From NCBI GenBank assembly GCA_030524545.1, contig JAUNGM010000012.1:55706-119705 (forward strand): DNA of 64,000 nucleotides, read 5' to 3'. The DNA is from Eubacteriales bacterium. GTDB lineage: Bacteria; Bacillota; Clostridia; Lachnospirales; Lachnospiraceae. Positions 31,871-48,046 of this stretch are shown here, piece after piece (the first letter of the stretch is position 1; the number at the start of each line of letters is the position of its first letter). The position numbers and the translations under genes are program-made. The notes under the pieces are model-generated. The model saw only the letters and a list, made by a program, of their open reading frames with translations. It made no database searches and had not been told where the DNA came from.

Positions 31871-33403
31871 ATGAAGAAACGTATTTTGGCCGTGGGAGTG
31901 GTTCTTGTGGCAGTCGGCGCGGCCGGGGGTTTTGGATGGTACTATTTTAACGGCAGTGGAGCCGTATCGTCCGATGATACGGCCGTATATGTATCGGAGG
32001 TCAGCACGATTACAGGAGCTGTTTCCGGTGTTACCAATCGGTATGCAGGAGTGGTAGAACCACAGGAAACGGTAGAAGTAAATATTGAAGGAAGCCGTAA
32101 AGTCAAGGCTGTAAATGTAAAAACAGGCCAGGAGGTCAAGCAGGGCCAGCTTTTATTTGAATATGATCTGACAAGTATCCAGGAGGATCTGCAGCAGGCC
32201 AAGCTGGATCTGGACAGATTGAAAAATGAGGCTCTCAGTCTCACAGACCAGATCGCTACTCTGGAAAAAGAGAAGAAGCAGGCCACAAAGGATAATCAGC
32301 TTTCCTATACCATTGAGATCGAAACAAATAAGATGAATCTGAAAAAAAACGAATATGATCAGAAGAGTAAGGAAGCAGAAATCCAGAAGCTGCAGAATGC
32401 GACGGGAAATACGGAGGTCCGCAGCGAGATTGACGGTATCATTCAGAAAATCGATACCTCTAAGATGACAACAGAGGATGGAGACGTGCTGGATGAAGGC
32501 TATACGGATGATTCCATGACTTCTTCGAATGGTGAGAGCAATGCCTTCATTACGATCCTGAGTACAGGTGCTTATCGAGTGAAAGGGCAGGTGAATGAGC
32601 TGGAGGCCCAGTCTTTGATTGAAGGAGATCCGATCATCGTGCGTTCCCGTCTGGATGAAAATCAGATTTGGCGGGGAACTCTGGGAACTGTGGACAGAGA
32701 TAACGCAGTGAATGACAGCAACAGCAGCATGTATTGGGGAATGATGGATACCGGAGATTCACAAACAACATCCAGTACATATCCTTTCTATGTAAATCTG
32801 GACTCTTCCGACGGCCTGATGCTGGGACAGCATGTGTATATTGAGCGTGATAACGGACAGGAAGATAAAAAGGATGGCTTATGGCTGAGTGAGTTCTATA
32901 TTGTGGACGCTGATTCGGAAGATCCCTATGTCTGGGCAGCAGGTGATAATGATAAGCTGGAAAAGCGTGTCCTGATCCTTGGGAATTACGACGGTGATCT
33001 TGGAGAATACGAGATTGTTGACGGTCTGACTTTGAAGGATTACATTGCTTATCCGGCAGAAAACCTTGAGGAAGGCATGATGACCAGCACGAGTGAATCC
33101 GCTCTTATGAATATGGAACTTCCTGAGTCGTCAGAGGATGCACTCACCATGGAAGGCCTGGAAGGTGCGGAATGGACAGATAATATGGAAGGCGAAATCA
33201 TTGAGGATCCGGAGGGTGAGATTATTGAAGACCCGGATGGGGAGTATACGGATGTGCTTCCGGAGGGTGATGTTATGATCGAATCGGAAGGAGAGGATAT
33301 TCCTTTTGAGGAGGATCTGGTGCCTGTAGATGGCGGGGAGAACTTCGATGATACTGTGCCGGAGGAAGAAATCACGGTGGATGATGCGGAGGATTTGGAA
33401 TGA
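31871..33403 (+). CDS. HlyD/RND-type membrane-fusion adaptor, first of two
   Basis: A 510-residue adaptor for an ABC exporter. A single N-terminal membrane segment (ILAVGVVLVAVGAAGGFGWYYF) is followed by a split biotinyl-lipoyl domain (VNIEGSRKVKAVNVKTGQEV and later SEIDGIIQKIDTS), a coiled-coil hairpin at ~100-180 and a beta-barrel region. The last ~75 residues are strongly acidic with a repeated GEIIEDPxGE motif. Gram-positive relatives (YknX type) work with MacB-like pumps. The ATG at 31871 has GGAGG 5 bases upstream. The stop overlaps the ATPase start by 4 bases. Confidence 0.88.
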   Translation: MKKRILAVGVVLVAVGAAGGFGWYYFNGSGAVSSDDTAVYVSEVSTITGAVSGVTNRYAGVVEPQETVEVNIEGSRKVKAVNVKTGQEVKQGQLLFEYDLTSIQEDLQQAKLDLDRLKNEALSLTDQIATLEKEKKQATKDNQLSYTIEIETNKMNLKKNEYDQKSKEAEIQKLQNATGNTEVRSEIDGIIQKIDTSKMTTEDGDVLDEGYTDDSMTSSNGESNAFITILSTGAYRVKGQVNELEAQSLIEGDPIIVRSRLDENQIWRGTLGTVDRDNAVNDSNSSMYWGMMDTGDSQTTSSTYPFYVNLDSSDGLMLGQHVYIERDNGQEDKKDGLWLSEFYIVDADSEDPYVWAAGDNDKLEKRVLILGNYDGDLGEYEIVDGLTLKDYIAYPAENLEEGMMTSTSESALMNMELPESSEDALTMEGLEGAEWTDNMEGEIIEDPEGEIIEDPDGEYTDVLPEGDVMIESEGEDIPFEEDLVPVDGGENFDDTVPEEEITVDDAEDLE

Positions 33404-34080
33404 TTCTGGAACTGAAGGGGATTTATAAGAATTACCAGCAGGGAAAAATGACCGTTCCTGTATTGAAGGATGTGAATTTTTCCATGGAGGAGGGGGAATA
33501 TGTGGCAATCATGGGACCGTCCGGCTCAGGGAAATCAACACTGATGAATATCATCGGATGTCTTGACCAGGCAACGGACGGCTCCTTTAAGCTGGATGGG
33601 CAGGATATCGGCAAATGTTCTGAAAATGAAATGTCCGATATCCGTCTCCACAAAATCGGCTTTGTGTTCCAAAGTTTTCATCTGCTTCCAAGGCAGAGCG
33701 CCCTTTCCAATGTGGAAATGCCGCTGAATTATGCCAGAGTCCCCAAAAAGGAACGCAGGGCCAAGGCGCTGAAAGCGCTGGATCGAGTTGGTCTTTCAGA
33801 CAGGGTGAATTTTCGTCCGAACCAGTTATCGGGCGGACAGATGCAGCGTGTGGCCATAGCCAGGGCAATTGTAAACAATCCCAAGCTGCTTTTGGCAGAT
33901 GAGCCTACCGGAGCACTGGACAGTAAATCCGGAGCACAGGTCATGGAACTTTTTAAAGCTCTCAATGAGGAAGGTGTGACGGTACTGATGATTACTCATG
34001 ATCCTGAGATTGCAGCTCATGCCAAACGAGTAGTTATGATCCGTGACGGAGAGCTGAAGGAGAAAGAGGTGAAGCCATGA
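33400..34080 (+). CDS. ABC transporter ATPase, MacB/LolD type
   Basis: A 226-residue ATPase that powers a MacB-like exporter. Walker A is GPSGSGKST (Gly39 to Thr47), the signature is LSGGQMQRVAIARA, Walker B is LLLADEPTGALD, and the switch histidine is in MITHDPE. The N-terminal pattern (EGEYVAIMGPSGSGKSTLMNIIGCLD) is typical of the LolD/MacB/YknY branch. It overlaps both neighbours by 4 bases, so the four-gene set is translated as a coupled unit. Confidence 0.95.
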   Translation: MILELKGIYKNYQQGKMTVPVLKDVNFSMEEGEYVAIMGPSGSGKSTLMNIIGCLDQATDGSFKLDGQDIGKCSENEMSDIRLHKIGFVFQSFHLLPRQSALSNVEMPLNYARVPKKERRAKALKALDRVGLSDRVNFRPNQLSGGQMQRVAIARAIVNNPKLLLADEPTGALDSKSGAQVMELFKALNEEGVTVLMITHDPEIAAHAKRVVMIRDGELKEKEVKP

Positions 34081-36089
34081 GCCGGATAAAAAAGGTCATT
34101 GCCGGAGTAGTGGTGACCGCATTAATTGCAGGTGCAGCATCCGGAGGGGCCATGTATATAAAGAAGTCCAATGAAAAAGAGGTTTTGGTTGTCAGCGTGT
34201 CAAGCCTTGCCAGCGACTTTTACAGCCAGGATACTTATCTGGACGGCAGTGTGACCACCAATATTTCCCAGAATGTGACAGTGGATAAGGATATGGTAAT
34301 TCAGGATGTGCCCGTCCAAAAGGGCGACAGTGTAAAGAAAGGGGACACCCTGATTACCTTTGATATGACTCTTGTGGAGATGGAACTGAATATTGCTAGG
34401 CTGAAACGACAGCAGTTGGAGCAGGATTTAAATAAAGCGGTAAACCGTCTGAAAAGCCTTCAGAACGGAGGGCCGATCGTGGAGGAGGATGATACTCTTC
34501 CAAGAAGCAGTAATGACGATCTGACCAGTACAGGGGAAGACGATGAGGTATCGGCAGCCGGATGGCAGGGGAATTATCTTGCTGCAGCCATTAAGCCGGC
34601 CATGCTTGCTGCAGCAATGGAAAATATCTTCTCGGATGATGCATCAGATAATCCGGGAAACGAGGTTTTGCAGTCAGCGGAAATACCTGATGTTAGAGAG
34701 GAAAATCCGGATGTGGATATGCCGGAGGCTGACGGCCAGCCGGACAGCAGTGATGGAATGGATTTGGATTCAGGTGAAGGTTTCAGTTCTGACAGCGACT
34801 TCAGCGCCGGTGACGGTTCCGGAAACGGATTTATTTCCGGAGAAAATGATCCGCCTAAGGCAACTCCTACTCCCACGCCTAAACCGGACAGTGGTATAGA
34901 TTATTTCGATTTCTTTACCTCAGAAGATGACTCGGGTTTTCATGACGGCAGCCCTGTATTTTATGATAAATTGGATGGAGATTCAATCCCTTATACAGGA
35001 AGGGGAAGTGAGGAAGAGCCTTATATATTTCTATGCAGTGCCGCTACGGGCAAAATTTCCGTAACAGGGGAATTCCTGAATCTGATGGCAGGATTCAGCA
35101 AAGACGGTACAAGGGTTCTGAATGAGAAAGGGTTCTGGTATCAGTTGGAATTTCATGAGAGAGATACGATCACAAACTTTGAAGACCGGACAGAGTCTTG
35201 TATCGGGTACTATCTTATTGATGGAACTCTGCTGGGAAGTCCGGCAGAGGGACTGGCAGAGGTGGAGTTTACGGTGGATGATGCTACCAAGTACGAGGAT
35301 GAAAACCCGGAAGATCCGGGAGACTCTGAAAATCCTGGTTCGAATAATGGTTCTGTTCTTACAAGGGCAGAGGCCATCAAACAGCAGCAGAACAAGATTG
35401 CAAGCCTGAAACTGGACATTCAGGAGAGTGATATCAATATTGCAAAGCTGGAAAAGAAGGTTCAGAAGCAAGTGGTCTATAGTAAGATCGATGGCATTGT
35501 AGCTTATGTGGGAGATTCTCTGACGGGCACCTCTTCAGGAAATGCGTTTCTTGTTGTAAAGAGCAAGGATGGCTACTATGTGAAGGGCTCGGTCAGCGAG
35601 CTTCTTCTGGATGAGGTGAAAGAGGGTACTCTTTTAAACTGCAACAGTTATGAGAACGGCAGTTTTGAGGCAGAAGTAGTAGACGTTTCCGAATATCCGA
35701 CAACATCTAATAATTACTATTATGGAGAAGGAAATCCAAATGTTTCCTATTATACATATAGTGCGATGGTAACGGATGACAGCGTGAAGCTTTCTGATCA
35801 GGACTGGCTGAATATCACCTTGAAAAACCAGGTTTCAGGAGCCGGCAGCTTTGTTCTGGATAAAGCATTTGTCCGAACAGAGAATGGCGTAAGCTATGTA
35901 TATAAGGATGATAATGGCGTCCTGAAGAAACAGATTCTTCAGGTGGGCGGCAATGTGAATGGCGGCTATAGTGTTCTGATCAAAGGCGGTCTTACAAAAG
36001 ACGATAGGATTGCTTTTCCGTACGGCAAGACTGCTCAGGAAGGTGTCAAGACCCGAGAAGGAACACTTGATGAGCTATACGGGTATTAA
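34077..36089 (+). CDS. Second membrane-fusion adaptor with a large insertion
   Basis: A 670-residue HlyD-like adaptor, much longer than the usual 350-450. Residues 1-30 hold the membrane anchor. The first lipoyl half (DMVIQDVPVQKGDSVKKGDTL) and a coiled-coil helix (MELNIARLKRQQLEQDL) come next. Then an insertion of about 300 residues follows: acidic low-complexity sequence, a TPTPTPKP stretch and a compact predicted domain (EEPYIFLCSAATGKISVTGEF). The returning helix (QNKIASLKLDIQESDINIAKL) and second lipoyl half (YSKIDGIVAYVGDSLTG) resume the fold at ~440. So the insertion sits at the hairpin tip. It overlaps the ATPase gene by 4 bases. Confidence 0.85.
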   Translation: MSRIKKVIAGVVVTALIAGAASGGAMYIKKSNEKEVLVVSVSSLASDFYSQDTYLDGSVTTNISQNVTVDKDMVIQDVPVQKGDSVKKGDTLITFDMTLVEMELNIARLKRQQLEQDLNKAVNRLKSLQNGGPIVEEDDTLPRSSNDDLTSTGEDDEVSAAGWQGNYLAAAIKPAMLAAAMENIFSDDASDNPGNEVLQSAEIPDVREENPDVDMPEADGQPDSSDGMDLDSGEGFSSDSDFSAGDGSGNGFISGENDPPKATPTPTPKPDSGIDYFDFFTSEDDSGFHDGSPVFYDKLDGDSIPYTGRGSEEEPYIFLCSAATGKISVTGEFLNLMAGFSKDGTRVLNEKGFWYQLEFHERDTITNFEDRTESCIGYYLIDGTLLGSPAEGLAEVEFTVDDATKYEDENPEDPGDSENPGSNNGSVLTRAEAIKQQQNKIASLKLDIQESDINIAKLEKKVQKQVVYSKIDGIVAYVGDSLTGTSSGNAFLVVKSKDGYYVKGSVSELLLDEVKEGTLLNCNSYENGSFEAEVVDVSEYPTTSNNYYYGEGNPNVSYYTYSAMVTDDSVKLSDQDWLNITLKNQVSGAGSFVLDKAFVRTENGVSYVYKDDNGVLKKQILQVGGNVNGGYSVLIKGGLTKDDRIAFPYGKTAQEGVKTREGTLDELYGY

Positions 36090-36104
36090 AGGAGGCGGGA
36101 ATAC

Positions 36105-37373
36105 ATGCTTGAGAATATAAGATTATCATTTCAGGGAATCTGGTCCCACAAAATGCGTTCCTTCCTGACAATGCTCGGTATTATTATCGGAATTGCATCG
36201 ATCATTGCGATTGTGTCCACAATTAAAGGAACCAGCGAGCAGATTAAAGAGGATCTGATCGGTTCCGGGAATAATACGGTAAACATCAGTTTGTATTATG
36301 GAGATAATACGTATGATACGGATTATGGAATGGGAAGCTCCAATCCGCCTATTCTGACAACAGACCAAAAAGAAGAGGTATTGGAACTGGAGAATGTGGA
36401 AAATGCAACCTTCTTTTACAGCCGTTCCTATTCCAGTAATATTTATTATCAGAATACCACATTCCAGGGCGGGAAGGTTTACGGAATTGACACAAATTTT
36501 CTGGAGACCTGCGGTTATACGGTTCGGTCCGGCAGGGGATTTGTCCAGAAGGATTATGATGAACTGCATAAAGTAGCATTGGTAGACAGCAGTGCGGCAG
36601 AAAATCTTTTTTCCGGGGAGGATCCGGTAGGAAAAATTGTTGAAATCGGTTCCGAACCATTTACAATCATTGGTGTTGTGCAGCAGGATGAAGATTATCT
36701 GCCCAATATCGATGATATATCCCAGTTTTACGAATATTATCAGACCGTAATGGGATCTGTGATGATTCCGTCCAGATGCTGGCCGATGGTATTCAAGTTT
36801 GATGAGCCGGAAAACGCGATCATCCGTGCCGATTCTACAGACAGCATGAGTACGGCGGGAAATGCAGCAGCTAAGGTCTTGAACCAGTATATAAGCAGCG
36901 GATCAAATTCTGACAGCACCACCCAATATGAATATCGGGCAGATGATGTCATGGAACGTGTAAAGAATCTTCAGAAGCTCAGTGAGAGCACCAATCAGCA
37001 GTTGCTTTGGATCGCCAGCATCTCCCTTCTGGTAGGGGGCATTGGAGTTATGAACATCATGCTTGTTTCCGTAACAGAACGAACAAGTGAGATAGGCCTG
37101 AAAAAAGCTATTGGAGCAAGGAAAAAGACGATTCTGATCCAGTTTTTAACGGAGGCGTCGGTACTTACCAGTATTGGCGGAGTAATCGGTGTTGTATCCG
37201 GTATTGCACTTTCCAAAGTGGTGTCGAGGCTGTCCGGGTCACCGACAGCCATCAGTGTTCCTGCAATCATCGGCTCCGTATTATTTTCTATGCTGATCGG
37301 AGTAATCTTTGGCCTGCTGCCTTCCGTAAAGGCGGCAAACCTGAATCCGATTGATGCATTGCGCAGTGAATAA
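36105..37373 (+). CDS. MacB/FtsX-type ABC permease
   Basis: A 422-residue exporter permease. Membrane segment 1 (SFLTMLGIIIGIASIIAIV) is followed by a large extracytoplasmic MacB_PCD domain (~45-280) with the conserved ALVDSSAAENLF segment, then three C-terminal segments with LLVGGIGVMNIMLVSVTERTSEIGLKKAIGA, the FtsX signature. With the ATPase and two adaptors upstream it should form a mechanotransmission-type exporter for peptides, antibiotics or lipids; the substrate is unknown. AAAGGAGGCGGG is its ribosome binding site. Confidence 0.93.
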   Translation: MLENIRLSFQGIWSHKMRSFLTMLGIIIGIASIIAIVSTIKGTSEQIKEDLIGSGNNTVNISLYYGDNTYDTDYGMGSSNPPILTTDQKEEVLELENVENATFFYSRSYSSNIYYQNTTFQGGKVYGIDTNFLETCGYTVRSGRGFVQKDYDELHKVALVDSSAAENLFSGEDPVGKIVEIGSEPFTIIGVVQQDEDYLPNIDDISQFYEYYQTVMGSVMIPSRCWPMVFKFDEPENAIIRADSTDSMSTAGNAAAKVLNQYISSGSNSDSTTQYEYRADDVMERVKNLQKLSESTNQQLLWIASISLLVGGIGVMNIMLVSVTERTSEIGLKKAIGARKKTILIQFLTEASVLTSIGGVIGVVSGIALSKVVSRLSGSPTAISVPAIIGSVLFSMLIGVIFGLLPSVKAANLNPIDALRSE

Positions 37374-37397: not shown

Positions 37398-37431
37398 AAG
37401 AGGATTTTGCCGAAAAGGGCAGAATCCTCTT
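37398..37431. terminator. Bidirectional terminator
   Basis: AAGAGGATTTTGCC (37398-37411) pairs with GGCAGAATCCTCTT (37418-37431) with one mismatch. It separates the converging permease and sensor kinase genes, with T-rich flanks on both strands. Confidence 0.8.
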
Positions 37432-37434
37432 ATT

Positions 37435-38721
37435 TTATCTATGGGGATATTTGGGAAGACGAATCAGGAAAACAGCACCTCCTCCCGGGGCATCCTTTAC
37501 CTGAATTGTCCCGCTGTGAAGCTGAACGATTTCTTTGGCAATACACAGGCCGAGGCCAAAGTGCTGTTTGTCATTTCTGGAGGTATCGGCACGGTAGAAG
37601 CGAAGGAAGATGGATTCCCTGGACTCATCAGGGATGCCGGGGCCATTATCTGCCACAGACAGAAAAACATTTTTGTCATTCTGCTCCAGTGCCAGGGTAA
37701 TACAGCCCTGGGACGGAACATAGCTTAAAGCATTGTCCATGAGAATGCTGAGAACCTGGGAAATTCTTGCTGCATCACAGAGACAGGGTTCCACATGCTC
37801 TTCCGGCAGCAGGACATCCAGATGGAGCATTTTCCTGCGGGCCAGGGGTTCATATTTTTCGTATGTTTCCAGCATCAGGGTGTCCAGTTCGCAGGGCGCG
37901 GTTACCAGGCTCCAGGAGTGGTTATCCGCATTAGCCAGAGAGAGCATATCGTTGATGAGGCGTCCCATACGGCTGCTTTCTTTTTTGATGATCTCTGTAA
38001 AGTGCGGAGCTTCTGCTGACGGGGCCTTTTCCATGGCGGAGATGCTGGACTGTATTACTGCAAGGGGAGAACGAAGTTCGTGGGAGGCAGAGGCAATAAA
38101 CTCTGTCTGCTGCTTCCGGCTTTCTTCCAGGGGGCGGATCATCTTTCTGGTAAAGAACCAGGAAAAGGCAGCCAGAGCCAGGACTGCGATCAGCACAGCA
38201 CAGCCGAATGCCAGACGCTGCTGATAGATCTGGATTTTCAAAGGCTCCAGAGGATAGAGAATCTCCAGGGAGAGGACACCGTTTACCCTGGGAATCAGCG
38301 CAGTACAGGCATAAAAATCACGGGTTTCAAATACAGTGCTTTTTGTAACCTGGGAAACACTTTTCAGGTTTTCCAGGTCCAGCCCGTAAGTGTCTTTGGA
38401 TATTTCCGCTGCTGTTATCAAAGAATCCGGCGATTCCCCGGAAGGATTCAATTTTTCGAAGAACAGAGGCTTTCCATTGTCTTTGATTTCCATCCGGATA
38501 CCGTATGCATTGCAGACCTGAAGGATCCACTGATGGGAGATAAGGCTCTGCCCTTCCAGGTGAGTGATGCAGGAAGAGGCATTGTTGGCAAAAGCCGTAT
38601 AGCTGTTTTGCCTGGTGCCGGATTCCGCAATAAAAAGGCAGGCAAGTGTCATGGCAATGAGAATCGTGCCTGTGATCAGCGTGGAAAAGATCGTCATTTG
38701 TATATGAAGCTTTCGAAACAT
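37435..38721 (-). CDS. Sensor histidine kinase
   Basis: A 428-residue membrane kinase. Membrane segments at ~10-32 and ~170-192 frame an extracytoplasmic sensor of about 135 residues. A HisKA domain carries SASHELRSPL with phospho-accepting His214. The HATPase_c domain has MDNALSYV (N box), VADNGPGIP (G1) and FGLGLCIAKEIV (G2). AGGAGG lies 7 bases from the ATG. No regulator gene is adjacent: the nearest one, on the same strand, is 2.6 kb further on (41358-42023), with the solute-binding protein gene between them. The kinase is divergent from that gene. Confidence 0.93.
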   Translation of the reverse strand: MFRKLHIQMTIFSTLITGTILIAMTLACLFIAESGTRQNSYTAFANNASSCITHLEGQSLISHQWILQVCNAYGIRMEIKDNGKPLFFEKLNPSGESPDSLITAAEISKDTYGLDLENLKSVSQVTKSTVFETRDFYACTALIPRVNGVLSLEILYPLEPLKIQIYQQRLAFGCAVLIAVLALAAFSWFFTRKMIRPLEESRKQQTEFIASASHELRSPLAVIQSSISAMEKAPSAEAPHFTEIIKKESSRMGRLINDMLSLANADNHSWSLVTAPCELDTLMLETYEKYEPLARRKMLHLDVLLPEEHVEPCLCDAARISQVLSILMDNALSYVPSQGCITLALEQNDKNVFLSVADNGPGIPDESRESIFLRFYRADTSRNDKQHFGLGLCIAKEIVQLHSGTIQVKDAPGGGAVFLIRLPKYPHR

Positions 38722-38747
38722 AAAAATTCCTCCTTATCAATGTCAAT

Positions 38748-38756
38748 ATCATAGCA
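38748..38756 (-). promoter_or_regulatory. Extended -10 promoter of the sensor kinase
   Basis: On the minus strand TGC-TATGAT ends about 27 bases before the kinase start codon. The -35 position is poor. Confidence 0.5.
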
Positions 38757-38809
38757 TATCATTCTGGAAAGTACCTCTAAAAAAGAAAAAAGTTTTCGGT
38801 TTTTATTTT

Positions 38810-38842
38810 TTAGAGAAATTTTAGAGATAAGGCTGGTATCAT
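38810..38842 (+). promoter_or_regulatory. Response-regulator-type direct repeats and promoter of the solute-binding protein
   Basis: TTAGAGA occurs at 38810-38816 and 38821-38827 (11-base period, one helical turn), followed by TGG-TATCAT (extended -10, 38834-38842). The second repeat starts 16 bases before the hexamer and replaces the -35 box. This is the standard geometry for an OmpR/PhoB-type activator. Confidence 0.65.
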
Positions 38843-38874
38843 ATGAGAAAATCAAGAAAGACGGAGGTAATCCA

Positions 38875-41226
38875 ATGAGAGGATATAAGAGATTAAAAAA
38901 GGGGATCGTTGTGACGACCGCAGTAAGTCTTGCGGCCGGAGGCAGCCTGTTTTTTGCAGGATGCGGAGAAAAGAAGGCGGAATCTGACAGCGTTGCAGCA
39001 GGGGACACCGTTGAAATGGAAGAAGCCGGAGAAGAAAAGGCTATGGGAAGGTATCTGGAATCAGAGCTTACCCTTCCGGAGGACTGCTGTATGTCCGATG
39101 GACTGGAATTTCTGGAGGATGGAACTTTGCGCTACAGCTTCCGGAATTCGGTATATGAGAATATGTACGCAGATTCCAAGGATAATGGGGAAACCTGGGG
39201 AGAACCGGTATCCATTGTAAAGCTTTTGAATTTTACCACGGATGCGTTTCAGATTGATAGTATGAAGCTTAATAAAGATGGAGGGATTTTTGTTCATGCT
39301 GTAGAGTATACCGATGAGAATTATGAGGATTATGTAACACATAATTATTACATTGACAAGGATGGAAATATCAGTGATCTGAACCTGGACTTTCTGGAGG
39401 GTACCTACCTTTGGGGAGGAATGGAATTTACGGAGGAAGGAACTCTCCTTCTGGGAGTGATGGGAAAAGGGATTGCAGAGATCAGCCTGGAGGACGGAAG
39501 CGTCCAAAAATGGTTTGAAGAGGGCGGAACGGCACAGTGGTTCGGGCTTGCCGGAAAGAATCTGATTGTAAATGTGGACGGAAGCCTCCATTATTATGAT
39601 CTGGAGACCGGCAAGCCGTTGGAAGATGAGGAAGCGCTTAGCCAGCAGATCGTCTCAAATGAGAAGAATCAGTACCGCAATGTCACCAGCTCCTGGACGA
39701 TCCTGTTTCTTTCGGGAGATGAAAAGGACAGTGTATTTTATGTAGATGATACGGGTATGTACCGGTATGCTTTCGGCGGCAGTGTGGTAGAACAGATCAT
39801 TGATGGAAAATTGAATTCCATTGGCTCTCCGGATACCGGATTTGTTGATATGGTAAAGGACAGTCAGGGAAGATTCTATCTGGCCGTACAGGATGGAGAA
39901 GGTGCTGCGAAGCTCCTGCAGTTTGAGTATTCCAAGGATGTGGCCGCGGTTCCGGATACGGAGCTGAAAGTCTATTCCCTCAGGGAGAACAGTTTCATGC
40001 GCCAGGCTGCTGCAGTCTTTCAGAAAAAGTATCCGGATATTTATCTGAATCTGGAAACCGGTATGTCCGGCGAGGATGCTATTACCATGACAGATGCTCT
40101 GAAGACCCTGAATACGGAAATCATGGCAGGGAAAGGACCGGATATTCTGGTTCTGGACGGTGTTCCGGAGGATACCTATATTGAAAAGGGAATGCTGGAG
40201 GATTTAAGCGGTATCCTGGAAAAGGTCAATGAAACAGATGGATTATTGGAGAATATTTATCAGCCTTATCAGGGAGAGGACGGAAGTGTTTATTCCATGC
40301 CGCTTCGATTTGCCATTCCGATTATTGCAGGGCATACGGAGGATCTTGATAAGATCCATGACCTGCAGACGCTTGCAGATGTGATCGAGGAAAATAAAGA
40401 AAACTATGATTCCTATAAGATGTCCGCTTCGCTCTGCAGTGCTCCGACAATGCTGCTTCGGAGTCTGGCGCGTGTCAGTGCAGGAGCCTGGATAAAGGAG
40501 GACGGTACACTGGATGAGGCTGCCGTTTCCGATTACCTTTCCCAGGCATACAGAATGTATCAGCCAACCCGGGAAATCATGAAGGAACTTTTGGGCGACC
40601 AGTATGATGAAATGGATGCTCAGTGGGCGGTAGACAATACCAGACTATATTTGTCAGACTCTATGCTTTTGGACGATACCTATCAGTTGGGCTTGGGCGA
40701 GGTATTTTCTTCGTATACTCTTTCTGAACTGTATTCCACAGAGGGTGTCGATTCTACCATAACACATAAAATCTGGAACGGGCAGGAAGAAAATTGCTTT
40801 ATCCCCATACAGTCTGTAGGGATTTCTTCCAAAGCGGCAGAAAAGGAAGCAGCGGAATTGTTTGCGGAGTTTCTATTCAGTCAGGAAGGACAGCGGATCG
40901 GTACAGAGGGGCTGCCGGTGAACAAAGCTGTTTACGAAGATGTGGATTACTGGAAGAAGGGTGAGTCAGACGAGATACTTTACACAAGCTCTTACGGCCG
41001 AAGCGATACAGGAGAAATGATGACATTTGAAACCCGTCAGGCGCCGGATGAGGAAATTGTCCGTATGCAGGAATTAGGAAAAACACTGGATAAGCCGTCG
41101 GATGTGAATGAATTTATCCTTTCCGCAGTCGCAGACAACGGAAAACGATATTTGAACGATGAGATTTCCCTTGATGAAGCAGTCAAAGCAATCATTCAGG
41201 AGGTAAATCTGTATCTGTCGGAATAA
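38875..41226 (+). CDS. Solute-binding lipoprotein with propeller-like N-terminal domain
   Basis: A 783-residue exported lipoprotein. The signal peptide ends in FFAGC with Cys30 lipid-modified. Residues ~55-355 look like a beta-propeller: an exact Asp-box S-x-D-x-G-x-T-W at residues 101-108 and repeated strands such as DSQGRFYLAV. Residues ~365-783 are an ABC extracellular solute-binding domain of the sugar/oligosaccharide type (AAAVFQKKYPDIYLNLETG, GKGPDILVLDG, FAEFLFSQEGQRI). Usual binding proteins are 400-550 residues, so the propeller is an extra module. Its promoter has paired TTAGAGA repeats shared with the permease operon at 42214. Confidence 0.8.
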   Translation: MRGYKRLKKGIVVTTAVSLAAGGSLFFAGCGEKKAESDSVAAGDTVEMEEAGEEKAMGRYLESELTLPEDCCMSDGLEFLEDGTLRYSFRNSVYENMYADSKDNGETWGEPVSIVKLLNFTTDAFQIDSMKLNKDGGIFVHAVEYTDENYEDYVTHNYYIDKDGNISDLNLDFLEGTYLWGGMEFTEEGTLLLGVMGKGIAEISLEDGSVQKWFEEGGTAQWFGLAGKNLIVNVDGSLHYYDLETGKPLEDEEALSQQIVSNEKNQYRNVTSSWTILFLSGDEKDSVFYVDDTGMYRYAFGGSVVEQIIDGKLNSIGSPDTGFVDMVKDSQGRFYLAVQDGEGAAKLLQFEYSKDVAAVPDTELKVYSLRENSFMRQAAAVFQKKYPDIYLNLETGMSGEDAITMTDALKTLNTEIMAGKGPDILVLDGVPEDTYIEKGMLEDLSGILEKVNETDGLLENIYQPYQGEDGSVYSMPLRFAIPIIAGHTEDLDKIHDLQTLADVIEENKENYDSYKMSASLCSAPTMLLRSLARVSAGAWIKEDGTLDEAAVSDYLSQAYRMYQPTREIMKELLGDQYDEMDAQWAVDNTRLYLSDSMLLDDTYQLGLGEVFSSYTLSELYSTEGVDSTITHKIWNGQEENCFIPIQSVGISSKAAEKEAAELFAEFLFSQEGQRIGTEGLPVNKAVYEDVDYWKKGESDEILYTSSYGRSDTGEMMTFETRQAPDEEIVRMQELGKTLDKPSDVNEFILSAVADNGKRYLNDEISLDEAVKAIIQEVNLYLSE

Positions 41227-41280
41227 AAAGGCTTTCGATATATAGAAACTTGTAATAAAAGATCATATAGAATATAAGAA

Positions 41281-41351
41281 ATAAAAACTGCCGGGCGGCA
41301 TATGCGATCACATCATGAGATTATCATGTTCAGCCGTCTGGCAGTTTTTAT
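41281..41351. terminator. Bidirectional terminator
   Basis: Nineteen-base arms (41281-41299 and 41333-41351) built on ATAAAAACTGCC pair with few mismatches and have A-rich and T-rich ends, so the hairpin ends transcription in both directions between the converging binding-protein and response-regulator genes. Confidence 0.85.
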
Positions 41352-41357
41352 ATATTT

Positions 41358-42023
41358 TTAAAGCTGATAGCCGATTCCGCGGATCGTTTTGACAGTCAGG
41401 GTGCTGCCTACGGTTTTCAGCCTTCTTCGGAGAAAGTGGATGTAGTTATCCAGGTTTCCCTCCTCCACATCACTGTCCAGTCCCCAGACCCTGTTGATCA
41501 GAACAGAACGTGTCAATGTCTGCCCGGGGTTTCGCAGAAAGACTTCCAGAAGATCTCCTTCACGTTTGGAAAGCGTGCATTCGTTTGCGCCGCAGGATAG
41601 ATGTTTAGTCTCCGGGTCATAAGTGATATCCTTCATAGTCAGGAAGGAGGAGCCTTCCCATTTGCCTGGGCGGCGCATAAGGCAGCGGATACGGGCATAA
41701 AGTTCCTCAAAGGCAAATGGTTTTACCATATAATCGTCCGCACCGCAGTCCAGGCCGGTAATCTTATCATTCAGATCGCCAAGTGCGGTAAGGAAGATTA
41801 CAGGTGTTGTTACATGGCCTTTGCGGGCTTCCCGGAGAACCGTTACCCCATCCATGGAAGGGAGCATCCGGTCAAGGATCACCAGGTCATGAAGATTTTC
41901 CTGCATAAAATACAGCCCTTCTTCCCCGTCATGGCAGACATCTACGGTAAAGTCCTCTTTTTCCAGCCGGTATTTTAGGGTTTCGCACAGTTCTTTATCA
42001 TCTTCTATAAGCAGAATTTTCAA
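41358..42023 (-). CDS. OmpR-family response regulator
   Basis: A 221-residue regulator. The receiver domain has the acidic pair Asp8-Asp9, phospho-acceptor Asp51 (VILDRMLPSMDG), the switch threonine in FLTALGD and the lysine of YMVKPF. The C-terminal winged helix has the transactivation and recognition pattern (LTRSVLINRVWG, LDNYIHFLRRRL, IRGIGYQL). The start is TTG at 42023, with GAAGGA 6 bases upstream; no ATG fits. OmpR-type regulators bind as dimers to direct repeats about 11 bases apart, exactly what is seen at the two transporter promoters nearby. The gene is divergent from the permease operon. Confidence 0.93.
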   Translation of the reverse strand: MKILLIEDDKELCETLKYRLEKEDFTVDVCHDGEEGLYFMQENLHDLVILDRMLPSMDGVTVLREARKGHVTTPVIFLTALGDLNDKITGLDCGADDYMVKPFAFEELYARIRCLMRRPGKWEGSSFLTMKDITYDPETKHLSCGANECTLSKREGDLLEVFLRNPGQTLTRSVLINRVWGLDSDVEEGNLDNYIHFLRRRLKTVGSTLTVKTIRGIGYQL

Positions 42024-42144
42024 TAGGATTCCTTCTTTCTAAAATCATACGGTAAGTTTTTGGGAACAAAATCATGTCTATTGTAACATAACCATCCTGA
42101 AAAAGCTGTAACATTTTTATCACTGCTGTTATCTTTTACTCAGC

Positions 42145-42177
42145 TTAGAGATTATTTAGAGATTACTATGCTATTCT
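42145..42177 (+). promoter_or_regulatory. Response-regulator-type direct repeats and promoter of the permease operon
   Basis: TTAGAGA at 42145-42151 and 42156-42162 with 11-base period, then TGC-TATTCT (extended -10, 42169-42177). The second repeat again starts 16 bases before the hexamer, the same arrangement as at 38810-38842. It lies in the divergent gap between the response regulator and the first permease. Confidence 0.65.
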
Positions 42178-42213
42178 TCTGTCAGGAAAAAGCAAATGAC
42201 AATGGAGGAATTT

Positions 42214-43059
42214 ATGAGAAAACGCAAAGAAGCCGTAAAAGCCCTGTTCTTTATCCTGCCGAGCTTTCTGGGAGTATGTTTGTTCTGGGTCGTTCCTTAT
42301 CTGGATGTGATCAGGCGCTCCTTTTTCAGTGCGGTGAGCGGGGAATTTACAGGCATCAAAAATTATCAGACAATATTTGGGAACCAGGCGTTCCGTCTTG
42401 CAGCGTCCAATACCCTGCGTTTTTTCTGCGTCTGCATCCCCATCCTGGTGGCATTGTCCCTTCTGGTGGCAGTCCTTCTTTCCAGAGAGCAGAGGAACCT
42501 TCAATTGAAAAAGAGCCTTTTTCTTCTTCCAATGGCCATCCCGGTAGCTTCCGTTGTGCTTTTGTGGAAGCTGCTTTTTCACAGCCAGGGACTTTTGAAT
42601 CATCTTCTGTCCCTGATTTCTGTGAAAGGGGTGGACTGGATGAATACAAAAGCATCTTTTGGAGTGCTGATCATCAGCTATCTCTGGAGAAACCTGGGAT
42701 ATGATGTGGTTTTGTGGGCAGCAGGAATCTCCGGCATTCCGCAGTCTCTCTATGATGCGGCGAAGGTAGACGGGGCAGGGGAATGGATGTGCTTTCGGAA
42801 GATCACCATGCCGAATCTGATGGGCTCATTATTTACGATCGTGGTTCTTTCCCTTCTGAATGGATTTAAGGTGTTTCGGGAGGCGTATCTCGTAGCAGGA
42901 GATTATCCTCAGCAGGATATGTATCTTTTACAGCATCTGCTTAATAACTGGTACCGTGACCTGGCGCTGGATAAAATGGCTGCGGCTGCGGTGGTAACGG
43001 GAATGATGATCATGCTGCTGATCCTGGCTTTGCAGAAAGCCTGGGCAAGGGAGGAATAG
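42214..43059 (+). CDS. ABC sugar-type permease, MalF/UgpA-like
   Basis: A 281-residue permease with six membrane segments. The cytoplasmic coupling loop is DAAKVDGAGEWMCFRKITMP, the EAA-type motif of importers. The first segment begins ALFFILPSFLGVCLFWVVPY. The ATG at 42214 has TGGAGG 5 bases upstream; an ATG at 42196 is less well placed. It pairs with the next gene as the two permease halves, and the binding protein is the separate gene at 38875. No ATPase is encoded here, so a shared MsmK-type ATPase is inferred. Confidence 0.88.
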   Translation: MRKRKEAVKALFFILPSFLGVCLFWVVPYLDVIRRSFFSAVSGEFTGIKNYQTIFGNQAFRLAASNTLRFFCVCIPILVALSLLVAVLLSREQRNLQLKKSLFLLPMAIPVASVVLLWKLLFHSQGLLNHLLSLISVKGVDWMNTKASFGVLIISYLWRNLGYDVVLWAAGISGIPQSLYDAAKVDGAGEWMCFRKITMPNLMGSLFTIVVLSLLNGFKVFREAYLVAGDYPQQDMYLLQHLLNNWYRDLALDKMAAAAVVTGMMIMLLILALQKAWAREE

Positions 43060-43062
43060 CTT

Positions 43063-43899
43063 ATGAAGAAAATCATGTCCGGACTTCTCTGGATACTGGC
43101 ATTGATTTTTGTATTTCCTGTAGTGTTTCTTTTTACCGGGTCTATTACAGGAAACCTGGAATTGAAAGAGCTGATCGGTCCGGTTCTTGGAAACGGTGGA
43201 GGATATGCATCCTGGAAGCTGTTTCCCATGTATCCTACCCTTAAATCCTATGTAGAGCTATTGATCGACACGCCCGGATTTTTTGTGATGCTGTGGAATT
43301 CTGTCAGAATCGTGACCGGTGTGCTTGCAGGGCAGCTTCTGGTGGGAGTACCGGCGGCCTGGGGGCTTGCCAGGTTCCGTTTTCCCTTTCGAAAGACGGT
43401 ATTTACCATTTATATAGCCCTGATGATGATGCCTTTCCAGGTCATGATGCTGAGTAACTATCTGGTACTGGATAGGCTGGGGCTTTTGGATACTCTGGCA
43501 GGAATTATATTGCCTGCGGTATTTTCCACATTTCCGGTATTTATCATGTACCGTTTTTTTGCCGGGCTGCCGGAGGCTTTGATGGAATCGGCGAGGCTTG
43601 ACGGAGCAGGAGAGCTGATGATCTTCTGGAAAATAGGCATTCCCCTTGGTTCCCCGGGTGTAATATCAGCCATGATATTAGGGTTTCTGGAATACTGGAA
43701 TCTTCTGGAACAGCCGATGGCATTTTTAAAAACAAAAGAGCTGTGGCCTCTGTCGCTTTTTCTTCCCGGAATCAGCATGGAGCAGGCAGGTGCTGCCTTC
43801 GCGGCATCTGCAGTTGTCCTGTTTCCGGCCCTGATGGTGTTTCTGGCAGGTCAGGATTATCTGGAGCAGGGGATCATATCCACGGCAGTTAAGGAGTAG
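43063..43899 (+). CDS. ABC sugar-type permease, MalG/UgpE-like
   Basis: A 278-residue permease partner. The EAA motif is ESARLDGAGELMIFWKIGIPLG, and six hydrophobic segments are visible. GGGAGGAATAGCTT precedes the ATG, 3 bases after the first permease stops. Family members import sugars or oligosaccharides with a lipoprotein-binding partner. The unusual point is that a HlyD-type adaptor gene follows 5 bases later in the same operon. Confidence 0.88.
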   Translation: MKKIMSGLLWILALIFVFPVVFLFTGSITGNLELKELIGPVLGNGGGYASWKLFPMYPTLKSYVELLIDTPGFFVMLWNSVRIVTGVLAGQLLVGVPAAWGLARFRFPFRKTVFTIYIALMMMPFQVMMLSNYLVLDRLGLLDTLAGIILPAVFSTFPVFIMYRFFAGLPEALMESARLDGAGELMIFWKIGIPLGSPGVISAMILGFLEYWNLLEQPMAFLKTKELWPLSLFLPGISMEQAGAAFAASAVVLFPALMVFLAGQDYLEQGIISTAVKE

Positions 43900-43904
43900 A
43901 AGTC

Positions 43905-45245
43905 ATGAAACGAAAAAGATTTATTAAATGGCTGGGGCTTTTCTTCGGGGCCATGCTTGTGTTTACCGTATTATCGAGGGCAGCAGATTCCATGAATACG
44001 GCAAGAGTAAGGGTGAGCAGAATGCAGAACCAGATTATTACCCACAAAGTAAGGGGAAGCGGAAAAGTAGAGGGAACCAGGGAGCTGGCTGTTTTCGCAG
44101 AAGACGGACAGAGGGTGGAGCAGATCCTTGTGAAGGAAGGACAGTCCGTAAAAAAGGATCAGACACTTTTGAAACTGTCACTGGATGTCCTTCTGGAGAG
44201 CGTGGAGAAAAAAGAAGATGAACTGGAGGAACTGAACCTGAGAGTTCAGGATCTGAAGAGTGCGGATTCCGTAAACCAGACAAAAAGATCTATGGAACTC
44301 TCACGCGCGCAGACAAATTATAATATTGCCGCCGGAAACGGGGATTACAATGTCCAGGCTGCTCAGAACGAATTAAATCTGGCAAGGCAAAGACTGGATG
44401 ATTATTACGATTCCCTGGGCTTTACCAGTGAGCCTGGAACCAGTGCGGAGGAACAGGCTCTTCAGGATGATATACGGGCAAAGCAGGAAGCGCTGAATCA
44501 GGCGGTCATGAATCGGAATCAGGCTGTCCTGGAAGCACAGAGGGGAATTGAGGATGCCAGTCTTGGGGAAGCTACGGACGGCAGTCTCAAGAATACGCAG
44601 AGACAGATCGAAACAGTACAGAAGGAGCTTGCTAAACTGCAGGAGATTCTGGAACACCAGGGAGAGATCAAAGCGCCCGCAGACGGCGTGATCAAATCCG
44701 TTTCGGTTGTTACAGGAGGGCAGACAGGGCAAGATGCGGCGATGGTGTTGTATGAGCTTTCCGGAGAACTTCGTATGACAGCGTCAGTTTCGGAGGATGA
44801 CATGAAATATGTGGAAATTGGCGGGAATGCAGAGGTCAAGGGCAGCAGCGGGACTGAGTCGGTGGATGCCAGGATTGAGTCTGTGAGCGAGGACAATACG
44901 GACCCCGATATACGGATCCTGACTCTTGTGCTTCCGGAAGATAGTCTATCTATCGGAGAATCGGCGGAATTTACCATCAGCAGGGATGAAGGTCCGTATA
45001 ATACCTGTATTCCGTTAAGTGCCCTGTACGGAGAGAACGGGAAAGAGTATGTTCTGGTGATGGATACCCAGGATTCCGTTTTGGGAGAGGTACAGGTGCT
45101 TCGTAAGGTATCCGTGACCGTACAGGACAAAAATGACAGCAGCGCAGCGCTGGCACCCGGCGCCCTGGCCGGAGACCAGCAGGTTGTCACGGAAGCGGAC
45201 CGCTCTGTAGAGGAGGGCAGCCGTGTCAGGCTGCAGGAGTCATGA
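43905..45245 (+). CDS. HlyD/RND-type adaptor co-transcribed with importer permeases
   Basis: A 446-residue adaptor. N-terminal membrane segment (WLGLFFGAMLVFTVLS), first lipoyl half (VFAEDGQRVEQILVKEGQSVKKDQTL), long coiled-coil hairpin (~95-245, with QTNYNIAAGNGDYNVQAAQNELNLARQRL), second lipoyl half (IKAPADGVIKSVSVVTGGQTGQD) and beta-barrel. Adaptors of this type partner exporters, not importers. Its stop overlaps the start of the MacB-like gene by 4 bases, so these two are a coupled pair attached to the two permease genes. Confidence 0.87.
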   Translation: MKRKRFIKWLGLFFGAMLVFTVLSRAADSMNTARVRVSRMQNQIITHKVRGSGKVEGTRELAVFAEDGQRVEQILVKEGQSVKKDQTLLKLSLDVLLESVEKKEDELEELNLRVQDLKSADSVNQTKRSMELSRAQTNYNIAAGNGDYNVQAAQNELNLARQRLDDYYDSLGFTSEPGTSAEEQALQDDIRAKQEALNQAVMNRNQAVLEAQRGIEDASLGEATDGSLKNTQRQIETVQKELAKLQEILEHQGEIKAPADGVIKSVSVVTGGQTGQDAAMVLYELSGELRMTASVSEDDMKYVEIGGNAEVKGSSGTESVDARIESVSEDNTDPDIRILTLVLPEDSLSIGESAEFTISRDEGPYNTCIPLSALYGENGKEYVLVMDTQDSVLGEVQVLRKVSVTVQDKNDSSAALAPGALAGDQQVVTEADRSVEEGSRVRLQES

Positions 45246-46309
45246 AAAGAGCCATGGGCAGTCTTTGGAAGCATGAAACAGAAAACTCTCTTCCGGTTCC
45301 GGTGCGGTGCAGTCCGGCAAAAGGAAAAAAGTGTCCGGGGACAGTTCTGGTGCTTATCCTGGCAATACTTTGTTACGGAGGCTGCCTTGAGCGCTGCGGG
45401 AGCATACAGAGAAACTCTTCCGTATGTATTGTGCTGGCGGATCATTCGCCGGACAGAGCCGAGGTAAGTGAGATTCTCCGTGACCAAAAGGAAAATGGAA
45501 AAACAGAAGAAATCTGTTTCTATAGAGAAGCAGGGCTTGTGACAGCAAAAGAACCGTCTTTTGGAAGGCAGGCAAAAGCTCTTTTGGCTGATGTGCAGGG
45601 GAATGCCGCTGCTTTTGACTGGTGTATCCGGGGTTTTTCCGAGGACGATCGGGAAGGATGTATCATTGATAAAAAAACAGCAGAGGATTTGTTCGGAAGT
45701 ATACAGGCAGAGGGTAGAGAACTTCAGGTTCATGAGAAACGGTATCAGGTGCGGAGCGTAGTCAGCTGGAAACAGCCTTTGATCCTGATACGCAGTGAAG
45801 ACCGGGAGGCAGTATACGGCAGAATTTACTTTGATTGTGAGGAAGGGAACAGGACAGATCGTGCCAATCAGTTTTTGATGCGGTATGGATTAAGCGGGAT
45901 ACAGGCAGACGGAAGCATTTTTGCAGCAGCGGCAGGGGTATCAGTGCTGCTTTTGCCGATGGCGATTTTCCTTAGGCTGTTTGCCTTTGCAGAAGAGCAG
46001 AGAAGAGGTGCGGAAAGTAAGAAAGAAGGATGGATATGGACGGCGGGAGCTTCACTCATGCTGGCTGTTTTGGTGTGTGTTGGGTGGAAATATTTTGCGA
46101 TACCGTCAGATTGGCTGCCGGGAAAATGGTCGGATTTTTCCTTTTGGTCAAGGCGGATCGCGGAAGAAAAAGAGAAGAATATGTATTTTCTGATGCTGTC
46201 ACGGACAGCGGGAGAAACGGAAATGTTATATTACGCGGTGTCTGCGGCTTTTCGAGGCGTGTTGTCCGTTGTATTCTATTTATGGTGGATTATTTTACGA
46301 AAAAAATGA
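45242..46309 (+). CDS. MacB/FtsX-like membrane protein, divergent
   Basis: A 355-residue membrane protein. One segment near residues 33-53 is followed by an extracytoplasmic region of ~170 residues with a MacB_PCD-like CIIDKKTAEDLFGSIQ stretch. Three segments follow at ~220-245, ~265-285 and ~330-352. This is the topology of MacB/FtsX permeases, but the conserved FtsX signature (GIGVMNIMLVSV-type) is missing and the sequence is strongly diverged. I infer a degenerate or specialised MacB relative that works with the preceding adaptor. The fourth segment is followed only by RKK at the end. Confidence 0.6.
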   Translation: MKRAMGSLWKHETENSLPVPVRCSPAKGKKCPGTVLVLILAILCYGGCLERCGSIQRNSSVCIVLADHSPDRAEVSEILRDQKENGKTEEICFYREAGLVTAKEPSFGRQAKALLADVQGNAAAFDWCIRGFSEDDREGCIIDKKTAEDLFGSIQAEGRELQVHEKRYQVRSVVSWKQPLILIRSEDREAVYGRIYFDCEEGNRTDRANQFLMRYGLSGIQADGSIFAAAAGVSVLLLPMAIFLRLFAFAEEQRRGAESKKEGWIWTAGASLMLAVLVCVGWKYFAIPSDWLPGKWSDFSFWSRRIAEEKEKNMYFLMLSRTAGETEMLYYAVSAAFRGVLSVVFYLWWIILRKK

Positions 46310-46429: not shown

Positions 46430-48046
46430 ATGAAAGTGTTAGAAGGAAAATCCGTTTTTTCCGGAATCTCAATCGGTAAGATTTCCATACTTCAGAAAAT
46501 GGACACCAGCGTAAAACGTGTTCATATCGATGATACAGCAGCGGAAATCGCGCGTGTAGAAGAAGCAAAAGGAAAAGCTGTAGCACAGCTGCAGAAGCTG
46601 TATGACAAGGCACTTCAGGAGGTCGGAGAATCCGGAGCTGCTATTTTTGAAGTACATCAGATGATGCTGGATGATGATGATTATCTGGATTCTATTCACA
46701 ACATCATCGAGAACGAGAATGTAAATGCAGAATATGCAGTAGCTACTACGGGTGATAATTTTTCTGCAATGTTTGCTGCAATGGATGATGATTATATGAG
46801 AGCAAGAGCTGCAGATATTAAAGATATTTCCGATCGTCTGGTACGTGTTCTTTCCGGATTTGGCGACGGCGGACTGGATGCCGAGGAACCTGTGATCGTA
46901 GTTGCAGAGGATCTGGCTCCAAGTGAAACCGTACAGCTGGATAAGAGCAAGGTGCTTGCATTTGTTACAAGAAAAGGTTCTTCCAATTCCCATACGGCGA
47001 TCCTTGCAAGAACCATGAATATTCCTGCGCTGATCAACATTGAGTATGACGAAAGCATGAACGGACAGATGGCGATCGTAGACGGCAGGAGCGGTTCCCT
47101 GATCGTTGATCCGGATGAAGAGACTCTGAAGAAATTCCAGGATATGAGAGATGAGGAGCTTCGTCAGAGAGCGATGCTCAAGGAGTTGAAAGGCAAGAAG
47201 ACAGAGACCAGGAGCGGCAGGAGCCTTCACCTGTATGCCAACATCGGAAGTGTTGGAGACGTTGCCAATGTGCTTGCCAATGATGCAGAGGGAATCGGTC
47301 TTTTCAGAAGTGAATTTATCTATCTGGAAAAGGATAACTATCCTACTGAGGAAGAGCAGTTCCAGATTTACAAGACAGTTGCACAGAATATGGCAGGCAA
47401 GAAGGTCATCATCCGTACGCTGGACATCGGTGCTGATAAACAGATTGATTATTTCCAGATGGAGCATGAGGAGAATCCGGCTATGGGGTATCGTGCGATC
47501 CGTATCTGCCTGGATCGTCCGGAAGTATTTAAAACACAGCTCCGTGCACTGTTCCGTGCAAGTATGTTCGGCACTATTTCCATTATGTACCCGATGATCA
47601 TTTCCGTTAAGGAAGTGCAGCAGATCAAGGCCATTGTTGAGGAAGTGAAGAATGAACTTACAGAGCAGGGAATTCCGTTCAGGGATGATGTGGAGCAGGG
47701 TATCATGATTGAGACTCCGGCTGCTGTTATGATCAGCGACCTCCTTGCAAAAGAAGTGGATTTCTTCAGCATCGGTACCAACGATCTGACTCAGTACACG
47801 CTGGCAATTGACCGTCAGAATGCAAAACTGGACAACATTTATGATTCCCATCATGAAGCAGTTCTCCGTATGATTCAGATGGTGGTTGACAATGCACATA
47901 AGGAAGGAAAATGGGCAGGTATCTGCGGCGAACTCGGTGCGGACACTACACTGACAGAGCGTTTTGTAGAAATGGGCCTGGACGAGTTGTCTGTATCTCC
48001 GACGTTTGTGCTTCCGGTTCGTAAGATCATCCGTGATATGGATTAG
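46430..48046 (+). CDS. ptsI: Phosphoenolpyruvate-protein phosphotransferase (PTS enzyme I)
   Basis: A 538-residue cytoplasmic enzyme I that passes phosphate from PEP to HPr. The active-site histidine is His188 in KGSSNSHTAILART. The PEP-binding domain shows GIGLFRSEFIYL, IIRTLDIGADKQ, NPAMGYRAIRI and the C-terminal cysteine in GICGELGAD. The length is slightly under the usual 570. A TGGAGG site precedes the ATG. ptsH is not nearby, so HPr is encoded elsewhere. Confidence 0.96.
   Translation: MKVLEGKSVFSGISIGKISILQKMDTSVKRVHIDDTAAEIARVEEAKGKAVAQLQKLYDKALQEVGESGAAIFEVHQMMLDDDDYLDSIHNIIENENVNAEYAVATTGDNFSAMFAAMDDDYMRARAADIKDISDRLVRVLSGFGDGGLDAEEPVIVVAEDLAPSETVQLDKSKVLAFVTRKGSSNSHTAILARTMNIPALINIEYDESMNGQMAIVDGRSGSLIVDPDEETLKKFQDMRDEELRQRAMLKELKGKKTETRSGRSLHLYANIGSVGDVANVLANDAEGIGLFRSEFIYLEKDNYPTEEEQFQIYKTVAQNMAGKKVIIRTLDIGADKQIDYFQMEHEENPAMGYRAIRICLDRPEVFKTQLRALFRASMFGTISIMYPMIISVKEVQQIKAIVEEVKNELTEQGIPFRDDVEQGIMIETPAAVMISDLLAKEVDFFSIGTNDLTQYTLAIDRQNAKLDNIYDSHHEAVLRMIQMVVDNAHKEGKWAGICGELGADTTLTERFVEMGLDELSVSPTFVLPVRKIIRDMD

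Follow-up and report, generated by a model that had tools for sequence, protein, structure and literature searches.

A conserved Lachnospiraceae gene unit combining importer-like genes with HlyD- and MacB-type genes, filed as a CUT1 importer variant

In the 64,000-nucleotide window examined here (the whole stretch of DNA that was analysed, from the Eubacteriales bacterium assembly GCA_030524545.1, family Lachnospiraceae), positions 37435 to 46309 carry seven genes: a sensor histidine kinase (HK), a solute-binding lipoprotein (SBP), a response regulator (RR), two sugar-type permeases (P1 and P2), an HlyD/MacA-type adaptor (HLY) and a membrane protein with a MacB-type extracellular domain (MAC). 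Gene order and regulation across relatives, whose loci are given L numbers, support the view that these genes, importer-like and exporter-like alike, belong to a single conserved unit in many Lachnospiraceae, mostly gut bacteria. The explanation that we favour, with modest confidence, is a CUT1-class (MalFGK-type) importer for an oligosaccharide- or glycan-like ligand that carries an HlyD adaptor on the outside, usually an ATPase-less MacB-derived protein, and a two-component system of its own. All seven genes proposed by the first-pass annotation, which was made from the sequence alone, were found at the positions it gave, and its remark that the transporter set holds no ATPase gene is borne out in the window, where none lies among the seven.

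Conservation of the gene order

We analysed 39 of the 41 MAC loci that lie outside the window's own genome in 299 genomes of the family (G136:C69 and G298:C26 were left out). These loci and one SBP-only locus make up set 1, while set 2 consists of 79 SBP loci, the best 79 of 352 relatives; nine set-2 SBPs are identical to set-1 ones (L169, for instance, is L071 again). Genes were labelled at a threshold of 40 bits with models whose training loci were of this type. SBP relatives occur in 82/299 family genomes, many of them as partial matches, and MAC relatives in 37/299, the window's own genome counted.

Recruited by MAC alone, the 39 loci have HLY (39), P2 (39), P1 (38) and SBP (36) on the same strand within seven genes of MAC. 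In 38 of them HLY directly precedes MAC, the exception being L071, with one intervening gene. The strict order P1-P2-HLY-MAC is found in 36/39 loci and SBP-P1-P2-HLY-MAC in 33/39; RR and HK lie nearby in 31/39, and the usual order, <HK<RR >SBP>P1>P2>HLY>MAC (arrowheads give the strand), is complete and strict in 20/39. Where loci are recruited by SBP and have at least 5.5 kb of downstream sequence (n = 68), HLY follows in 62, P1, P2 and HLY together in 60, and MAC in 47. Set 2 is made up mostly of Lachnospiraceae and of metagenome-assembled Eubacteriales genomes, and also has Robinsoniella peoriensis, Murimonas intestini, Diplocloster agilis and Sporofaciens musculi.

The first-pass annotation had proposed a single system and had set beforehand the observation that would speak against it, namely HLY and MAC genes unlinked from the permeases in other species. 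The opposite was found: the linkage is conserved, and the strict P1-P2-HLY-MAC order in 36/39 loci, together with the regulator box common to the parts (see below), supports the proposal. A coincidental juxtaposition of a sugar importer with the remains of an efflux system would fit the interleaving of the window's genes with minus-strand genes, but it is very improbable against an order conserved over tens of diverged loci, up to other classes of the phylum, and one box common to the parts.

The expectation that the split kinase/regulator order would also be conserved fell away. Among the 119 annotated regions, the window's interleaved HK-SBP-RR order recurs only in L168 (Candidatus Blautia intestinigallinarum), and 30/40 and 61/79 regions of the two sets have RR and HK next to each other on one strand; the split is therefore, on this count, a local feature. 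In L167, the window's nearest relative on the permease tree, the SBP-RR block is flipped, and the gene order of L071, L084 and L085 is shuffled in other ways. For the swapped SBP-RR block we considered an invertible switch and dropped the idea, as the window and L167 belong to different species.

Beyond the family, a phylum-wide search with a C-terminal MAC profile that avoids the MacB signature found 5/398 genomes, three from other classes. The C-terminal part was used because, at class level, the full-length profile was swamped by ordinary MacBs (149/391 genomes, four above 200 bits), most rows among the matches listed covering the MacB_PCD signature alone. Four distant loci all have the order P1-P2-HLY-MAC-MalK-type ATPase-SBP. 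Their SBPs are 459-498 aa long, which leaves no room for the propeller described below, and the kinases and regulators near them reach only 114-173 bits against the family models.

Several loci depart from these arrangements. In the distant Clostridia loci L164, L165 and L166, P2-HLY-MAC-like genes (MAC at 43-51 bits) are followed by one more SBP-like gene, and P1 is seen in L164 and L166; these loci may be intermediate forms of the module. L073 and L074, on two contigs of one genome, have SBP-P1-SBP with RR-HK at one site and P2-HLY-MAC at the other, where the latter sits behind a candidate glycyl-radical enzyme and activase. L217 (Sporofaciens musculi) stands in a record whose title calls it a plasmid, and the system may therefore be mobile; a plasmid search gave one partial match, to 43% of the query.

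The regulator box and the layout of the locus

That the importer-like and exporter-like genes stand under one regulator box is supported by a motif with the consensus TTAGAGA-N4-TTAGAGA. It forms an 11-base direct repeat, as is expected for an OmpR-type regulator. Exact copies occur twice in the 4.34 Mb of the window's own genome, before SBP and before P1 only (Table 1). Inexact copies lie at one place with one mismatch and at 15 with two; the reversed pattern, taken as a control, has 82 places with up to two mismatches, and therefore the exact matches alone count within this genome. The sole one-mismatch box (L113, G000:C35:52335) precedes another kinase/regulator gene pair.

Across the 70 divergent RR/SBP regions, an exact 7-mer repeat at period 11 is present in 42, where shuffles give 2.2, and the most frequent 7-mer is TTAGAGA (39/70). 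Among 103 regions upstream of SBP, a box with up to three mismatches is found on the SBP strand in 74 and on the other strand in 50, where 3.5 per strand are expected from the simple base shuffles used for these expectations. Boxes with no more than one mismatch number 117 distinct ones, and for 104 of them the next gene on the strand is a labelled system gene: SBP for 63, RR for 35, P1 for 4 and HK for 2, the last two standing 744 and 3429 bases from HK, with an unlabelled gene next for the other 13. TANNNT follows exactly 9 bases after the box in 102/117, a spacing that is as expected if the regulator replaces the -35 element. Where P1 or P2 has been separated from SBP it still has a box, which is exact in the window, L085, L167 and L262 (the permease operon of L168's genome, on another contig), has one mismatch in L084 and has two in the genome of L073, where it precedes P2.

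Table 1. Genes and regulator boxes of the locus (window positions)
Feature	Position	Strand	Remarks
HK, sensor histidine kinase	37435..38721	-	HisKA + HATPase_c; N-terminal ~200 residues without Pfam match
Response-regulator box TTAGAGAAATTTTAGAGA	38810..38827	+	before SBP; TATCAT (-10-like) 9 bases on
SBP, lipoprotein	38875..41226	+	modelled beta-propeller + CUT1-type solute-binding domain
RR, OmpR/PhoB-type response regulator	41358..42023	-	TTG start
Response-regulator box TTAGAGATTATTTAGAGA	42145..42162	+	before P1; TATTCT (-10-like) 9 bases on
P1, MalF-type permease	42214..43059	+	EAA-type loop (DAA in window)
P2, MalG-type permease	43063..43899	+	EAA-type loop (ESA in window)
HLY, HlyD/MacA-type adaptor	43905..45245	+	hydrophobic segment at N-terminus
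MAC, membrane protein, MacB-type extracellular domain	45242..46309	+	no FtsX match

P1, P2, HLY and MAC are tightly packed, with gaps of 3 and 5 bases followed by a 4-base overlap (ATGA), and are therefore likely to form one transcript. The P1 frame is open from 42196, its first ATG, and the start chosen in Table 1 fits a GGAGG immediately 5' of it. SBP and RR are convergent, as are HK and the upstream MacB gene, which are separated by a terminator-like hairpin of 14 pairs (37398-37431). A promoter scan gave no signal, with 13 sigma-70-like sites versus 11.9 in shuffles. About 120 bases after MAC, a candidate phosphotransferase system (PTS) enzyme I, judged by eye (46430-48046), is probably a separate unit.

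Transporter parts and the candidate motor

SBP matches the CUT1-type solute-binding proteins (SBP_bac_8, E=5e-14; SBP_bac_1, E=5e-10, the latter in 35/37 members), the family matches covering only about residues 370-700. In the structural model, a beta-propeller (about residues 57-357), assigned from the strand pattern and matches in a viral library, precedes a CUT1-type solute-binding domain (about 362-783). The top Foldseek rows for the SBP half are CbpC, YesO and further oligosaccharide-binding proteins, and the 50 PDB rows among the matches listed for the SBP model are all of SBP or maltose-binding-protein type. The C-terminus reads NLYLSE, with Y780 and E783 invariant in the 37 members. 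Among the literature matches listed there was no described case of a propeller-SBP fusion. The ligand of the proposed importer is probably a glycan. L070 has a second, truncated SBP-like frame (13500-14537) beside an intact SBP, and tandem SBP genes occur in several further loci (L078, L214 and L240).

Both permeases are BPD_transp_1 proteins with EAA-type loops, as in CUT1 importers. In 114 P1 rows the G, the A and a later P of this loop are invariant and the E position is E/D in 113; in 109 P2 rows the G and A are invariant and the E position is E/D in 109. The window's own genome has one OB_MalK ATPase, away from the locus and with no strong CUT1 permease within the 12 kb around it, and 30 P1-like places at E<1e-10, P1 included. 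By analogy, one MalK-type ATPase for many P1-like permeases is the shared-ATPase arrangement that passages of PMC7658222 describe for CUT1 importers with MsmX/MsmK. In the set-1 regions, no ATPase label falls between SBP and MAC except a MalK-type gene beside P2 in L076; L105 has a MalK-type gene 1.4 kb upstream of SBP on the same strand. The operons of the distant loci include a MalK-type ATPase in 4/4 cases, and complete versions of the system would therefore carry an importer motor rather than a MacB-type one.

HLY is an HlyD/MacA-type adaptor by its match to HlyD_3 (35 bits, cut-off 22.2), while its match to RND_mfp has E=7e-20 yet falls under the family cut-off, and that to MacA (5nik) is weak (E=0.0089). 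It is the best HlyD_3 match of its own genome; the sole other match is a short, broken frame with no P1-like place within 80 kb. This adaptor count is too low, as the HlyD_3 model missed both adaptors of the pump next to the locus. That pump (31859-37373) consists of an HlyD-type gene (514 aa), a MacB-type ATPase, a second HlyD-type gene (670 aa) and a MacB, that is, two adaptors in one pump operon.

MAC comprises 355 residues, with about four membrane helices in its model; the helices at 225-256 and 260-284 are connected by 3 residues. The model shows the MacB/YknZ extracellular fold, and the sequence matches MacB_PCD weakly (E=0.0027, 18.4 bits, cut-off 27). Residues P293, S297, D298 and F299 are conserved, and the family has the consensus motif PxDxIPxxWSDFxFW. 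An FtsX-type membrane domain with a coupling helix is not detectable: MAC is absent from the 31 FtsX matches of its own genome, and FtsX (PF02687) at E<=0.01 matches 0/40 MAC members, versus 30/40 for MacB_PCD. The EIGxxxAxGA-type motif of the neighbouring MacB is likewise found in none of the 40 members, a weak control, as only 4/19 comparison open reading frames (some of them cut) have it, so that the Pfam count carries the point.

MAC is not universal. SBP, P1 and HLY are present with no MAC after HLY in 16 loci, and 14 of these retain both RR and HK. MAC matches in the genomes of these 16 loci reach at most 43.1 bits, and the 21-43 bits seen in 3/16 are the level of ordinary MacBs and of distant MACs alike, so a far relative could lie elsewhere; clear MAC members have 176-306 bits with the same profile. 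On a quick, midpoint-rooted P1+P2 tree of 102 rows, one change explains 13 MAC-less rows (12.5 in shuffles), with the MAC-less L226, L230 and L234 left out (P1/P2 not adjacent, or P2 unlabelled). The SH-aLRT support is 68 for the MAC-less branch and 95 for a 12-row subset, and near the branch MAC is already short (297 aa in L100 and 278 aa in L107). Because the distant loci have MAC, we infer loss rather than gain. By these counts HLY is the core part and MAC an optional accessory.

These results bear on the reading of the system as an exporter or mechanotransmission assembly, in which HLY and MAC would work outside the membrane, driven either by a P1/P2-MsmK motor or by the efflux ATPase at 33400-34080. 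HlyD and MacB-type folds are otherwise parts of export or mechanotransmission machines, according to passages of PMC5985334, and the system has a MacB-type pump as its neighbour in the window and in L167 and L168. We nevertheless consider an export role improbable because MAC shows no coupling domain, in both the FtsX count and the weaker motif test, and can be lost; in addition, the pump in the window has no box (two or fewer mismatches), and the operon ATPase of the distant loci is MalK-type. The motor is probably importer-type (MalK/MsmK) rather than the neighbouring efflux ATPase. Of the two motors suggested by the first-pass annotation, a shared MsmK-type ATPase is thus the best candidate (one OB_MalK in the genome, MalK-type genes in all four distant operons), whereas borrowing of the efflux ATPase is unlikely, on the same grounds and because no annotated region other than L167 and L168 has the pump adjoining.

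Proposed function and comparison with known systems

In the CUT1-class importer that we favour, the propeller/SBP lipoprotein would bind the ligand, which would enter via P1 and P2, powered by a MalK/MsmK-type ATPase encoded elsewhere. On the outer face, HLY would form a scaffold or a collar across the wall, holding or feeding the lipoprotein(s), and MAC would be an optional platform for HLY, as MacB carries MacA. HK would sense the ligand or the state of the transporter, and phosphorylated RR would activate SBP and P1-MAC, in many relatives also its own promoter. In this proposal the ligand, the direction of transport, the signal to which HK responds and any contact between HLY and P1/P2 or SBP are inferences. 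The more specific proposal that HLY serves as a docking tube, or as a conduit leading inward, across the Gram-positive wall, with the ATPase-stripped MacB fold as its platform, is tentative; if true, export machinery would have been recruited for uptake, an idea like that of Mce/Mla with unrelated parts.

Several observations weigh against an importer. We know of no tested precedent for an HLY in an importer, and the models were built from 37 and 40 sequences. The genome's own MalK-type ATPase does not stand entirely alone: its contig also carries P1-like permeases at distances of about 6 and 13 kb, the nearer one adjoining another ABC ATPase. In 6/68 SBP-recruited loci (L167, L170, L199, L231, L219 and L235) no HLY is labelled downstream on the SBP strand; in L167 the operon is divergent from SBP, and the genomes of L170, L199 and L231 carry HLY elsewhere (L172, L073 and L221). 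Flanking genes were compared in 38 cases beside or inside the cassettes, comprising 32 of the 35 genes that directly follow MAC (those of L176, L177 and L239 left out) and 6 others. Sugar-degrading enzymes are not regular neighbours among them (GH31 in 2/38 and lacto-N-biose phosphorylase in 1/38, among the 25 of 60 families listed), and a VanY-type carboxypeptidase, which would fit a cell-wall ligand, accounts for 3/38. These VanY-type D-Ala-D-Ala carboxypeptidases (E about 1e-35) lie between HLY and MAC in L071 (8107-8817) and directly behind MAC in L173 (16170-16898) and L088 (9832-10551).

The VanY-type neighbours hint at cell-wall material, and we therefore rate slightly higher the main rival, a transporter-type sensor analogous to BceAB-BceS that would mainly detect an extracellular cell-wall fragment, glycopeptide or peptide and set the kinase, with uptake secondary. 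Such a sensing role, ranked above export, is still doubtful. It would account for the dedicated two-component pair near 31/39 MAC loci, for RR as the next gene of 35/117 boxes and for the placement of the VanY-type genes; MAC has the MacB-type extracellular fold of BceB, at low similarity, and passages of PMC5985334 describe the co-evolution of BceAB with its kinase. However, the BceB-like MAC is missing from 16 loci, 14 of which keep RR and HK, the kinases and regulators of the distant loci match so poorly (114-173 bits) that the pair looks replaceable, and P1 and P2 retain their importer ATPase loops.

The first-pass annotation knew of no named system with this composition, and none was found in the literature, where we also found no earlier description of an importer with HLY and MAC. 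Passages of an R. gnavus transcriptome paper, PMC11581127, list SBP and permease genes and have no HlyD. All the parts come from known families. As far as the literature found goes, neither their combination nor its conserved order has been described, and the same holds for the regulator box and the propeller-SBP. The usual reading of HlyD adaptors and MacB folds is that they point to export or mechanotransmission, whereas in the Lachnospiraceae they are steady partners of importer genes under one regulator, and an efflux annotation of these HlyD and MacB-like genes would mislead. The question this opens is what function such an adaptor has when both an outer membrane and its pump are missing, and natural variants (HLY kept without MAC, MalK-type genes in the distant operons, separated units with a box) allow it to be asked directly.

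Among known systems, the Mce and Mla lipid importers are alike in idea only, having an outer tube or ring on an ABC importer, and their permease and adaptor families differ from those found here. BceAB-BceRS modules (in passages of PMC5985334) share the MacB-type extracellular fold and a dedicated two-component system, which is linked to 31/39 MAC loci; MAC, however, has about four helices where BceB has ten, no ATPase gene stands beside it, and the adaptor and importer parts are additions. The type VII systems MacAB, YknWXYZ and Spr0693-0695 (in passages of the same paper; the literature matches listed also include PMC4887032 and PMC5768738) likewise have an HlyD/MacA-type adaptor and, behind it, a membrane protein whose MacB-type extracellular domain comes after the first helix, whereas here there is no cognate MacB-type ATPase, fused or in the operon, MAC has no FtsX match, and both genes are linked to CUT1 permeases and an SBP and share their regulation. 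CUT1 importers with a shared MsmK/MsmX ATPase, as passages of PMC7658222 present them (PMC4519317 is a further literature match listed), are alike in the SBP fold, in two BPD_transp_1 permeases with EAA-type loops, and in an operon without an ATPase and one MalK-type ATPase elsewhere; to these the present system adds HLY (62/68 loci), MAC (47/68), a propeller fused to the SBP and an OmpR-type two-component system. Because two defining features of MacAB-type systems fail, while the CUT1 features tested are all present except for an ATPase in the locus, the system is filed here, on its sequence features, as a variant of the CUT1 importers.

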